DNA from: Bacteroidia bacterium
GTDB lineage: Bacteria > Bacteroidota > Bacteroidia > B-17B0 > Aurantibacillaceae
Direction of reading: 5' to 3'
Assembly: GCA_020846025.1 (NCBI GenBank)
Contig: JADLER010000128.1
Coordinates: 1-64,000 of the forward strand
DNA length: 64,000 bases
Shown here: in pieces, positions 9,882 to 52,472 of the stretch
Layout of the letters: each line of letters begins with the position of its first letter
Numbering within the stretch: the first letter of the stretch is position 1
Program-made: the position numbers and the translations under genes
The notes under the pieces: generated by a model
The model's input: the letters and a program-made list of their open reading frames with translations, nothing else
Told to the model about the DNA's origin: nothing
The model's database searches: none

Positions 9882-12365
9882 TCAACTATTAAATTTTCTA
9901 CCCTTTGCAACGGGTTTAGCCTGTAATGGGTTTTCAGGCCAAGCATGTTTTGGGTAACGGCGTTGTAATTCTTTTCGAACTTCAAAATAAGTATGGTTCC
10001 AAAAACTATCCAAATCATTAGTAACTTGTACAGGTTTGTACCCTGGTGATAATAAATGTAAAAGCGTTTTTATTTTTCCATTATTAAGTAAAGGTGTATG
10101 TAACCAACCAAACACCTCTTGTAATCTTACAGCAATTACAGGACTTTCTCCATTAAAAAAATACGTAATTCTAATTTTTGAACCGCTAGGCACTTCTATC
10201 TTTTCTGGAACCAACTGTTCAAGCTGTTGTTGTTGTTCCCAAGATAAAACATGCAAAAGACATGCCGATAAATCTATTTTCTTTAAATCTTCAGAATACT
10301 TTATATCGTTTAAAAATGGTGCTAACCACTCGTAAGCGTTTTTAATTAAAGCATCTAACTCAACATTTGGAAAAGTGTCATCTTTATTCCAAATTTTTAG
10401 GCTATTAATTCGGTTTTGTAACTGATAAAATGCTTCATTAAAATGAAGCAAAGTATCAGCCTCTGTTTGAATAGCTTTAATAATTACATCTACATTTTTT
10501 GATTTATCAGGATTTTGTAAAGGTTTCGATTGAAGAACGATATTTCCTATTTTCAACTCATTGGCACATATTAAGCCACCTTTATGTGTATCCCAGTATA
10601 TTGTTTCTGTTTCTTTAACTAAATGAATTAAGTCTTTAGGGTTAAGCGGCGCAGCTAAAAATATTTTACCTATTCCATCTCGTAAACTCATATTTGCTAC
10701 AGCCAGCCACGATTCGTGAGCTAAGCTATCTTGATGACCTATTGCCGCTATCTTTCCATTAGAGAGTTGAAATTGAGCGTTATTCCCTGGTTTTGCCGAT
10801 GCAATTCTTTCAGGGAAAGCATAAGCCAAAAGTAAACCTGTATCATAAGCATCTACTACAGCATTATTTTCTGGTATGTTTAAAAGTTTCCGAAAACTAT
10901 CAGCGTTTTTATCAACCCGTTTTAATTTATTATTAAATGTGTTTTGAACTCTAGCCCTTCTCAATGTTTCAATTCTTAAATTCAAATCAGCACCTGCATC
11001 TTTTGATAAAAAATCTCGCTCTTCTAAAATACCAGCAATGTCACAAGCTAATTGTTTTAATAAAGTAGTATCAGCCATTAATAACATGTGTGCAATTCGA
11101 GGATGACAGGCTAATTGATGAATTTGCTTCCCATGTTCAGTTAATTTAAAATTCTCTAAGGCTGAAATTTGATGCAAGGTTTCATAGGCTTGTTGAACAG
11201 CAGATTTTGGTGGTGGTGATAGCCAACAAAATGAGTTTACATCATGGGCACCCCATTTACTTAACTCTAAAATTAAGCTACACAAATCGGCATCCATAAT
11301 TTCAGGAATACGCTGCTCGGCTAATCGTTCATGAGTTGCTAATGACCACATTCTGTAACAAACACCTGGAGCTAATCTTCCAGCGCGACCCGCTCTTTGA
11401 TCGGCTGCATCTTTTGAAATTCTTACTGTTTCAAGTTTTGATAAACCCGATGCAATATCAAATCTTGAACGACGTGTAAAACCAGTATCAATCACTACTC
11501 TCACACCTTCAATGGTTAATGAGGTTTCGGCAATTGATGTAGCTAGAACTACTTTACGTTTTCCGAATTTACTTGGAACTAAAGCGACATATTGTTCTTT
11601 ATAAGGTAAAATGCCATATAAAGGGTGAATGCTTATATTAGGAATTTGAGATTGTAAAATGGATTCGCATTTTTTAATTTCCGATTCACCAGGCAGAAAA
11701 ACCAACACATCACCTTGTTGTTCATGTATGGCTCGTGAAACCATCTGAGCGGCTAACTCAGGAAGCAGAAATTCATCCGCATCGTTTGAATAAATTAGTT
11801 CAACAGGATGTTGCTTGCCTTTGCTTTCTATAACTGGAGCTGAAAGTTTTTGTTGTAGTTGAGGCACATTTAAAGTAGCCGACATGATCACAATTCTTAA
11901 ATCAGGTCTTAAAATTTGTTGAGACTCAATACACAAAGCTAAAGCTAAGTCGCCTTGTAAATTTCTTTCATGAAACTCGTCGAACAATACTACACTTACT
12001 TGCTCTAAAGCATTATCATGTTGCAACATGCGAGTTAAAATACCTTCGGTAACTACTTCAATTTTTGTATCTGCGCTTACACAAGTTTCCATTCTCACTC
12101 TATAACCAACTGTTTTCCCAACATCCTCACCCAATAAATCAGCCATACGCTTAGCAATAGACTTAGCAGCTAAGCGTCGAGGCTCAAGCATGATGATTTT
12201 TTTACTGTTTAAAAATGATTGATTTAATAGTGCTAACGGTAGAATTGTACTTTTTCCTGCACCTGGAGGCGCAACAACAATCAGTGTTTGATGAGTTTGT
12301 AGTGTTTTTATAAACTCCGGAATAATCTCGGTAACAGGAAGTTGTATATGTGAATAATCAAACAA
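9882..12365 (-). CDS. hrpB: ATP-dependent RNA helicase HrpB
   Basis: About 827 residues from TTG at 12365. Motifs in order: Walker A APPGAGKST, DEFHERNL (the DEAH-box variant usual in HrpB), the SATLN motif, and QRAGRAGR, followed by winged-helix/ratchet regions and the HrpB-specific C-terminal domain ending with KHAWPENP. DEAH/RHA-type helicase; physiological RNA target poorly known. The open frame runs upstream through both tRNA genes, which cannot be coding. The only ATG after them (12392) lies inside the tRNA terminator hairpin, whereas TTG at 12365 gives an N-terminus (FDYSHIQLPVTEIIPEF) of the usual family length. Start is therefore uncertain. Confidence 0.9.
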   Translation of the reverse strand: MFDYSHIQLPVTEIIPEFIKTLQTHQTLIVVAPPGAGKSTILPLALLNQSFLNSKKIIMLEPRRLAAKSIAKRMADLLGEDVGKTVGYRVRMETCVSADTKIEVVTEGILTRMLQHDNALEQVSVVLFDEFHERNLQGDLALALCIESQQILRPDLRIVIMSATLNVPQLQQKLSAPVIESKGKQHPVELIYSNDADEFLLPELAAQMVSRAIHEQQGDVLVFLPGESEIKKCESILQSQIPNISIHPLYGILPYKEQYVALVPSKFGKRKVVLATSIAETSLTIEGVRVVIDTGFTRRSRFDIASGLSKLETVRISKDAADQRAGRAGRLAPGVCYRMWSLATHERLAEQRIPEIMDADLCSLILELSKWGAHDVNSFCWLSPPPKSAVQQAYETLHQISALENFKLTEHGKQIHQLACHPRIAHMLLMADTTLLKQLACDIAGILEERDFLSKDAGADLNLRIETLRRARVQNTFNNKLKRVDKNADSFRKLLNIPENNAVVDAYDTGLLLAYAFPERIASAKPGNNAQFQLSNGKIAAIGHQDSLAHESWLAVANMSLRDGIGKIFLAAPLNPKDLIHLVKETETIYWDTHKGGLICANELKIGNIVLQSKPLQNPDKSKNVDVIIKAIQTEADTLLHFNEAFYQLQNRINSLKIWNKDDTFPNVELDALIKNAYEWLAPFLNDIKYSEDLKKIDLSACLLHVLSWEQQQQLEQLVPEKIEVPSGSKIRITYFFNGESPVIAVRLQEVFGWLHTPLLNNGKIKTLLHLLSPGYKPVQVTNDLDSFWNHTYFEVRKELQRRYPKHAWPENPLQAKPVAKGRKFNS

Positions 12366-50670: not shown

Positions 50671-50768
50671 TATACCCTAACGGGATTTTATCAATTAAAA
50701 TAAATTATTTTATACCCGAATGGTTCATTTATTTAATTTTTTAATATATTTGTACCCGTAAAGGTATA
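50671..50768 (+). promoter_or_regulatory. hip operon control region: -7 element and three 40-bp-spaced operators
   Basis: TATACCC-TAAC-GGGAT (50671), TATACCC-GAAT-GGTTC (50711) and TGTACCC-GTAA-AGGTATA (50751) are imperfect palindromes whose starts lie exactly 40 bp apart. A perfect -7 element TATATTTG (50745-50752) abuts the third, placing the likely transcription start inside it. HipB proteins bind such inverted repeats (TATCC-N8-GGATA in E. coli), so these are probably autorepression sites. Binding is inferred. Confidence 0.7.
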
Positions 50769-50775
50769 ATTAAAG

Positions 50776-51207
50776 ATGAACAATCTGTCGTTATTTATCC
50801 GTTTTCAGAGAAAAAGACTTGGCATTACTCAAGAAGAACTTGCAACAAAAGCAGGAGTGGGACTTCGTTTTATCCGTGAGTTAGAACAAGGTAAGTCAAC
50901 ATTACAGTTAAACAAAGTTGAACAAGTCCTGCGTTTATTTGGATTTCAACTTACCCCAAACAAACAACGAATTGATCCTTACGATATTTTTTGGAATTAC
51001 ATGAATAAAGGTGTAAAAATTACATTATCTAACAAAGTAATTAAGTATGGAATTATAATAGCAGAAATTATTGACAAAAAAGAAAATAAAATTAACGCAT
51101 GGAAGTTTATTCCGAATAATAATGCTATACAGTATCAACAAAAACCAGATGATAAATTAACGGAAACAATTATCCACGCAGACATAACTGTTATTGAAAA
51201 TCAGTAA
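50776..51207 (+). CDS. hipB: HipB-like XRE repressor/antitoxin component
   Basis: 143 residues. The N-terminal helix-turn-helix FQRKRLGITQEELATKAGVG with LRFIRELEQGKSTLQLNKVEQVL is the Cro/C1 fold seen in HipB. The C-terminal half (about 75-143) is not the usual short HipB tail; it has beta strands (GVKITLSNKVIKYGIIIAEII, INAWKFIPNN). It probably represses the operon through the three operators and may bind HipT. First of three genes, 12 bp before the next. Confidence 0.85.
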   Translation: MNNLSLFIRFQRKRLGITQEELATKAGVGLRFIRELEQGKSTLQLNKVEQVLRLFGFQLTPNKQRIDPYDIFWNYMNKGVKITLSNKVIKYGIIIAEIIDKKENKINAWKFIPNNNAIQYQQKPDDKLTETIIHADITVIENQ

Positions 51208-51219
51208 TGCACATCTTAT

Positions 51220-51543
51220 ATGAAACAAGGATTAGTTTATAAAAAAGACAAAATAGCAGGAAGAATTTGGGAAGATGAAAACGGATATTCATTCCAATAT
51301 AATGAAGAATATTTATTAAATCCTATATACGGTGCTGTTAGCAGAACACTACCCTTGCGTTCAGAAATATTTAATGATAAAACCATGTTGCCGTTTTTTG
51401 ACGGATTAATCCCTGAGGGTTGGTTGTTACAAATTGCTATAGAAAATTGGAAGCTCAATCAGAGAGATAGAATGAGTCTGTTATTAACTCTCTGTAATGA
51501 TTGTATTGGCGATATCTCCATAATTCAAAATAAAATAAAATGA
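51220..51543 (+). CDS. hipS: HipS-like protein (HipA N-terminal subdomain alone)
   Basis: 107 residues matching only the N-terminal 'couple_hipA' domain: AGRIWEDENGYSFQYNEEYL, AVSRTLPLRSEIFNDKTMLPFFDGLIPEGWLL, and a C-terminal TLCNDCIGDISII. In single-chain HipA this piece precedes the kinase. In E. coli HipBST the same split-off domain, HipS, is the antitoxin that neutralises the HipT kinase. Its stop overlaps the next start (ATGA). Confidence 0.85.
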   Translation: MKQGLVYKKDKIAGRIWEDENGYSFQYNEEYLLNPIYGAVSRTLPLRSEIFNDKTMLPFFDGLIPEGWLLQIAIENWKLNQRDRMSLLLTLCNDCIGDISIIQNKIK

Positions 51544-52472
51544 ATTGTTTACTTTGCTATAAAACGTTACAAGCAGAAGAAAAAGATTATCACATAAAAT
51601 GTATTGATAAAGTTTTAGGATTGAAACAGATGCCAGAATTTGACATTGACGAAAAAAAATTAAGTGATTATGCTAAAAAATTCATTGGTGCTAATAAAGC
51701 AATTACAGGCGTTCAACCAAAATTAAGTTTGTGGTTAGAAAAAACTAAAAAAAATACACGTTTTACAATTGTTGACGACAAGAGTAATTATATCATTAAA
51801 CCTCAAAATGAATTCTATTTATCCTTACCCGAAAATGAAGACTTGTGTATGCACCTTGCAAATGAATTTGGAATTAAAGTAGCAACTCATAGTTTAGTTC
51901 GATTAAAGAGCGGTAACCTTGCATACATTACAAAAAGGTTTGACAGAGATGGTGTAAAAAAAATTGCTTGTGAAGACTTATGTCAGCTTACAGAAACCCT
52001 TACAGAACATAAATATAGAGGTAGTTATGAAAAAGTTGGTAAAACTATCAAACAATACTCAACACAGTATGGGTTAGACATCTTACATTATTTTCATTTG
52101 ATTTTATTTAGTTTCATTACGGGTAATGCTGATATGCATTTAAAAAATTTCTCAATGATGGAAAGAGAAGACGGAGCATTTTATTTAAGCCCATCATATG
52201 ATTTAGTAAGTACACATCTTGTAATTAAAGATGAAGAAGAACAAATGGGTTTGAATCTTAATGGCAAAAAAAATAAAATCTCAAAAAAAGACTTTGATAT
52301 TTTAGGGCAAAACTTGGAATTAACGCCAAAACAAATTCAAAATAGCTATGATTTATTTATTGACGAAACTGATAAATTTCATTGGTGGATAGATAATTCA
52401 TTTTTGACTTCAGAGCATAAAGACGCTTTTAAAACAATTGTTTCCGACAGAATAGTTATTCTAAAATCATAA
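51540..52472 (+). CDS. hipT: HipT-like serine/threonine kinase toxin
   Basis: 310 residues, the HipA kinase core without its N-terminal domain. The Gly-rich loop is AITGVQPKLSLW (54-65); catalytic Asp198 lies in TGNADMHLKNFSM, with metal-binding Asp221 in SPSYDLVST. It begins with a possible zinc motif Cys3-x2-Cys6 ... His18-x2-Cys21. E. coli HipT has SxS in the Gly-rich loop (autophosphorylated); here the pair is Ala54/Thr56. HipT of E. coli inactivates TrpS by phosphorylation; the target here is unknown. Confidence 0.87.
   Translation: MNCLLCYKTLQAEEKDYHIKCIDKVLGLKQMPEFDIDEKKLSDYAKKFIGANKAITGVQPKLSLWLEKTKKNTRFTIVDDKSNYIIKPQNEFYLSLPENEDLCMHLANEFGIKVATHSLVRLKSGNLAYITKRFDRDGVKKIACEDLCQLTETLTEHKYRGSYEKVGKTIKQYSTQYGLDILHYFHLILFSFITGNADMHLKNFSMMEREDGAFYLSPSYDLVSTHLVIKDEEEQMGLNLNGKKNKISKKDFDILGQNLELTPKQIQNSYDLFIDETDKFHWWIDNSFLTSEHKDAFKTIVSDRIVILKS

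Follow-up and report, generated by a model that had tools for sequence, protein, structure and literature searches.

Comparative support for functional 40-bp phasing of putative HipB operators in Bacteroidota hipBST operons

We begin by considering a stretch of 64,000 nucleotides from a Bacteroidia bacterium (contig JADLER010000128.1), which we call the window. It holds three similar sites at equal steps in front of a split hip operon, and the question it raises is "does the step between these sites have a function, or is it merely inherited?"

Operators and operon in the window

The features are collected in Table 1. As the original prediction had it, the heptamers TATACCC, TATACCC and TGTACCC begin at 50671, 50711 and 50751, with steps of 40 and 40 and gaps of 22 bp between the operators. 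The prediction had also described all three sites as palindromes with a 4-nt centre followed by a GGG or GGT half, and this description holds in part. O1 is the only near-full palindrome of the three, and it reads AGG after the centre; in O2 one half is good (TATACCCG) and the other degraded, which makes it a poor palindrome.

The sites are scored with a motif built on 100 homologous upstream regions, and in a scan of the 260 bp upstream of the window hipB no position apart from O1, O2 and O3 exceeds -0.7 bits. The probability that a random 18-mer scores at least as well as O2 is 3e-4 per position, and the downstream half of O2 is degenerate both in the window and in its closest relatives. Judged by its letters, O2 alone is a weak candidate, yet it is positioned exactly where relatives carry a site. 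In a pattern search of the 3.24-Mb genome the exact TRTACCYNNNNRGGTAYA occurs at O1 only, and 116 sites with up to two mismatches are found against 93 for the reversed control, so that a wider regulon in this genome is not evident.

Table 1. Positions of the putative operators, the promoter box and the hip genes in the window
Feature	Position	Strand	Description
O3, upstream operator	50671..50688	.	TATACCCTAACGGGATTT; 15.2 bits; relatives have a homologous site at the same step
O2, middle operator	50711..50728	.	TATACCCGAATGGTTCAT; 1.6 bits; at the conserved step
-7 promoter box	50745..50752	+	TATATTTG; Bacteroidota TAnnTTTG type; overlaps O1 by 2 nt
O1, operator over the end of the -7 box and the likely transcription start	50751..50768	.	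TGTACCCGTAAAGGTATA; 23.7 bits
hipB	50776..51207	+	143 aa; Cro/C1 helix-turn-helix (residues 3-59) and extra C-terminal domain; couple_hipB; HipB(Lp) 8ezt
HipB extra C-terminal domain, residues 66-143	50971..51204	+	Sm/LSm-like predicted fold, pLDDT 95.5
hipS	51220..51543	+	107 aa; HipA N-terminal subdomain (Couple_hipA); presumed antitoxin
hipT	51540..52472	+	310 aa; HipA_C kinase; HipT(Lp) is the closest relative with a solved structure

The split hip operon proposed downstream is present with its domains in order: hipB (HTH), hipS (HipA N-subdomain 1) and hipT (the HipA_C kinase without that subdomain), with 12 nt between hipB and hipS and a 4-nt overlap of hipS with hipT. The best PDB sequence matches of HipT are 8ezr and 7vkb (E 1e-45), against 8e-17 for the O127 type 7ab3, and for HipB the sole PDB sequence match and the best fold match are both 8ezt. 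Since both proteins are nearest to those of Legionella, the operon is classed from its sequence as an intact hipB-hipS-hipT of the HipBST-Lp type, with predicted toxin and antitoxin roles. This type is common in Bacteroidota and their relatives (PMC10653801). The window genome has one HipT copy, and a search of 19 genomes of the same genus gives no relative of comparable similarity (best E ~1e-29), so the locus is patchy.

The window HipB belongs to the long HipBs (135-151 aa, with the extra C-terminal domain), roughly one in four of those found. An Sm/LSm-like fold is predicted with high confidence for this domain. Its best fold matches are Lsm/Hfq at E ~0.01-0.05 (best 0.013, none below 0.001), while Pfam LSM is hit weakly in one of 20 and no Pfam model is convincing.

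Conservation of the step among hipB homologues

The original prediction named beforehand a result that would overturn it, namely homologues lacking both the motif and the 40-bp phasing, and it survives this comparison. Relatives are gathered by HipT, 100 non-redundant hipB upstream regions are extracted, and the iterated motif, TATACCC-N4-GGGTATA, is palindromic over 18 nt and carries 22 bits. At 8 bits it gives 256 sites, against about 2 in Markov shuffles. Sites are carried by 84 of the 100 regions, with a range of 2 to 5 per locus (exactly three in 58, four or five in 15). The 172 adjacent steps are 39 bp (4), 40 bp (79), 41 bp (75), 42 bp (7) and others (7); that is, 165 of them lie within 39-42 bp (mean 40.5, s.d. 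0.6), and the gaps between sites in relatives are 21-24 bp. Some of the outliers are skipped sites: 79, 80 (in the window, whose O2 scores under the threshold) and 126 bp (3 x 42).

Among named organisms the steps are 41 and 40 on a Runella slithyformis plasmid, 40 and 40 in Persicobacter, and 41 and 41 in Bacteroides finegoldii; an Arcobacter relative with 29% HipT identity has no such array. A motif-free autocorrelation peaks at 40/41 in 68 of 100 loci; shuffled sequences give 1-8. When 30 representatives below 70% HipB identity are taken, 58 of 61 steps still lie within 39-42 bp, so relatedness is not the cause of the constant step.

The operator sequence itself has changed twice under this step. 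In one clade of ten HipBs (support 100/100) the operators read TATATG-N6-CATATA, and in another of three HipBs they are 17 nt long and read TATAC-N7-GTATA; the steps between clear sites are 39-41 bp in both. These changes go together with residue 31 in the recognition helix of HipB, which is Arg in 84 of 84 TACCC loci (83 parsed automatically, and L075 by eye, with the helix TGLRF), Thr in all ten TATATG loci and His in all three TATAC-N7-GTATA loci. The separately branching L018 also has His31, with TGTACTTTAAATAGTATA-like sites ~40-41 bp apart. Arg31 is lost where the GG/CC core is lost, and we infer that it reads guanine. This covariation of residue and operator is the best evidence, at the level of sequence, that HipB reads these sites.

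We also search for the array without using hip genes. In a pattern search of 395 Bacteroidia genomes with steps of 26-56 bp allowed, 24 of the 25 operator-like steps listed are 40-41 bp and one is 52 bp; the other matches lack the flanking palindrome and look like chance. With a stricter motif and steps of 55-85 bp allowed, only 80-82 bp is found, i.e., two steps. One pair of TACCCAATTGGGTA 38 bp apart (G118) is rejected as a hip array; it precedes a gene for a LuxR-like regulator, not hipB.

Of 14 operator-like arrays, ten have a complete hipBST downstream. The rest stand before a hipB that lacks hipST (L145), hipB remnants (the second array of L141, and L146) or nothing recognisable (L144). 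In L145 (665-2453, array at ~2435-2540) hipB and its 41, 41 array are followed by an MqsR-like gene and the gene of a Panacea (SocA-like) antitoxin, possibly a toxin cargo swapped behind the HipB control region. In L141 a four-site array occurs twice in almost the same form, at a distance of 7.7 kb (10152-10433 and 2549-2687); the second, apparently a duplicated control region, lies before a truncated hipB, beyond which are AbiEi-AbiEii genes. L144 (2441-2499) has a pair of perfect operators at a 41-bp step next to a serine recombinase; its 5-kb stretch contains no hip gene, and this orphan array is possibly a remnant. L060 (= L152) has steps of 41, 52 and 41 upstream of hipB; its 52-bp step, one helical turn longer, is a natural phase variant.

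What sets the step

We turn our attention to the promoter. The third site had been said to meet the -7 box; the contact is there, but as the 2-nt overlap of Table 1 rather than as abutting elements. In 40 of the 84 loci, the window among them, TAnnTTTG starts exactly 6 nt before O1, and a perfect box near O1 overlaps it at this one fixed offset; there is no TAnnTTTG enrichment at O2 or O3 in the 84 loci. O1 begins with the final TG of the box, and hence reads TGTACCC in place of TATACCC. The fixed offset supports the earlier suggestion that O1 covers the start site. From the established layout of Bacteroidota promoters, O1 would lie over the start region and O2 over the -33 region.

The reading that we prefer, and consider probable, is that these are autoregulatory HipB operators of an operon of the HipBST-Lp type, and that the 40-41 bp step is itself functional, with neighbours probably in contact and repressing cooperatively. 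By analogy with the relatives, a HipB dimer, alone or as HipB2(HipS-HipT)2, would bind each 18-nt palindrome and repress. O1 takes in the -7 box and the likely start site, the -33 region would fall under O2, and O3 follows just upstream; with O1 and O2 occupied, RNA polymerase would be excluded. Along the helix, adjacent HipB complexes would be separated by about four turns, near one face of the DNA. Each site would nucleate one HipB2(ST)2 whose HipS-HipT arms reach along the DNA and touch the backbone; the 40-bp step would bring neighbours into register, so that bound complexes probably contact each other. Against this reading stand the poor palindrome of O2, the lack of a cooperativity signature and the similar affinities of the three operators in Legionella (PMC10653801), a shortfall of ~50 degrees from four turns for each step at 10.5 bp/turn, and the L145 array without hipS-hipT, which indicates that HipB alone may set the step.

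Alternatively, the operators may be independent and additive, giving graded occupancy or titration, and the even step a functionless relic of a 40-bp tandem duplication. The variable number of sites is what duplication would allow, and the authors of the Legionella study propose intermediate occupancy instead of cooperativity (PMC10653801). The linkers speak against this. O2-O3 linkers compared across loci have a similarity of 0.40 against 0.38 when shuffled, and linkers within one locus 0.42 against 0.40; O1-O2 linkers are somewhat alike across loci because the -7 box lies there. The outer linkers resemble each other no more than shuffled DNA does, yet they keep a length of 21-24 nt across HipBs below 70% identity, so that length and not sequence is kept. 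Neutral linkers so diverged should hold indels, as does the interval from O1 to the ATG, which ranges between 18 and over 50 nt at a constant operator step; the step also outlives the two changes of operator sequence. We therefore regard independent operators with a relic step as unlikely, and selection of the 40-bp step, rather than mere inheritance, as strongly supported by these comparisons.

Could the promoter alone dictate the step? With O1 on -7/+1 and O2 on -33, a 40-bp step would fit RNA polymerase with no contact between repressors. The fixed offset of the -7 box and the expected coverage of -33 by O2 agree with this, and the degenerate downstream half of O2 in the closest relatives is as expected of overlap with a promoter element. 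But O2-O3 and O3-O4 are equally tight (40 bp in 41 and 3 loci, 41 bp in 23 and 11 loci), O3 and O4 stand outside the core promoter, and a -33 box sought in the homologous upstream regions gives no TTG peak; we hold promoter geometry as the cause to be quite improbable.

That the Sm-like domain of long HipBs sets the step by ringing three dimers (six subunits, as in Hfq) is very improbable and is rejected as the cause of spacing: its predicted fold would suit such a ring, but the fold matches are weak, and short HipBs without the domain share the step (46 at 40 bp and 69 at 41 bp, against 33 and 6 in long HipBs), which makes the step independent of it.

Helical phase and comparison with other hip systems

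The remaining part of the original prediction placed bound repressors on one face of the DNA. A step of 40.5 bp is 4.0 turns at 10.13 bp/turn and 3.86 turns at 10.5; the placement is plausible but hinges on which helical repeat is assumed. Bending or looping of the DNA, which the prediction also raised, finds no support in these comparisons. The linkers are 84% A+T, and the helical repeat of A+T-rich DNA is nearer 10.1 bp.

The nearest known system is the hipBST of Legionella pneumophila, of the same Lp subfamily (PMC10653801). It also has three 18-nt inverted repeats at equal steps, with O1 on the promoter and the upstream operators less symmetric than O1, as in the window; according to its published description the gaps are 53 bp (~71-bp steps), whereas here they are 22-23 bp (40-41 bp steps). 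Legionella HipB binds each of the three operators in EMSA, in a complex that HipT and HipST also enter; the authors saw no signature of cooperativity, and the three sites were bound with similar affinity. They analysed operators within Legionella only, and left open which HipB residues give specificity and whether the operators act together (PMC10653801).

The hipBA of E. coli K-12 likewise has several 18-nt palindromes (four sites) over the hip promoter, bound by HipB dimers. Its half-sites are TATCC-N8-GGATA at uneven measured steps of 28, 39 and 28, unlike the TATACCC-N4 sites and 40/40 steps of the window, and its HipA is one protein. E. coli HipB bends its operator by ~70 degrees (PMC3920265). 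In the unrelated YefM-YoeB of E. coli, palindrome spacing governs cooperative binding of the toxin-antitoxin complex, at 12 bp centre-to-centre (PMC3920265).

HipBST of the O127 type in Bacteroidia shares the tripartite hipB-hipS-hipT and even palindromic sites before hipB, but its HipT is ~30-35% identical, its operator in part of the loci is TCACATTATAATGTGA, and its step is 61-62 bp. In 39 such loci the best lag is 61-62 bp in most (60-62 bp weighted 26.8/39, against 2-3 in shuffles); loci with this step of their own upstream of hipB are L026-L030 and L163-L203. HipBST of E. coli O127 is a far stronger repressor than HipB by itself, being active at much lower levels, and basic residues of HipT lie near the DNA backbone (PMC10627512).

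The steps of 40.5, 61.3 and 71 bp correspond to about 4, 6 and 7 turns of 10.13-10.2 bp (3.86, 5.84 and 6.76 at 10.5), a match of three values that is suggestive only. Tentatively, and with somewhat more doubt than belief, we propose that HipB arrays are built on whole turns, each step near n x 10.15 bp, with a number fixed per HipBST subfamily: four in the Bacteroidota Lp-type, six in the Bacteroidia Ec-type and seven in Legionella. The rare 52-bp step would be a one-turn variant, geometry would be conserved above operator sequence, and the period of the phased nucleoprotein array would reflect how large the HipBST complex is on DNA.

On these comparisons, the idea that HipB operators are functionally phased at 40 bp is strongly supported, not proven. 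Even operators before hipBST are already known in principle from Legionella; what appears new is a 40-bp phase under strong selection in an autoregulatory HipB array. The 22-bit motif and the fixed period make hipBST operons easy to locate in Bacteroidota genomes. The comparison bears on both of the questions from Legionella, with residue 31 (Arg, Thr or His) as a candidate specificity determinant and operator phasing for cooperation. Growth arrest and persistence are under the control of hip kinases, whose switching hinges on repression of the operon; that the step is kept even where the operator sequence differs suggests a need for repressor complexes to be aligned along the DNA.
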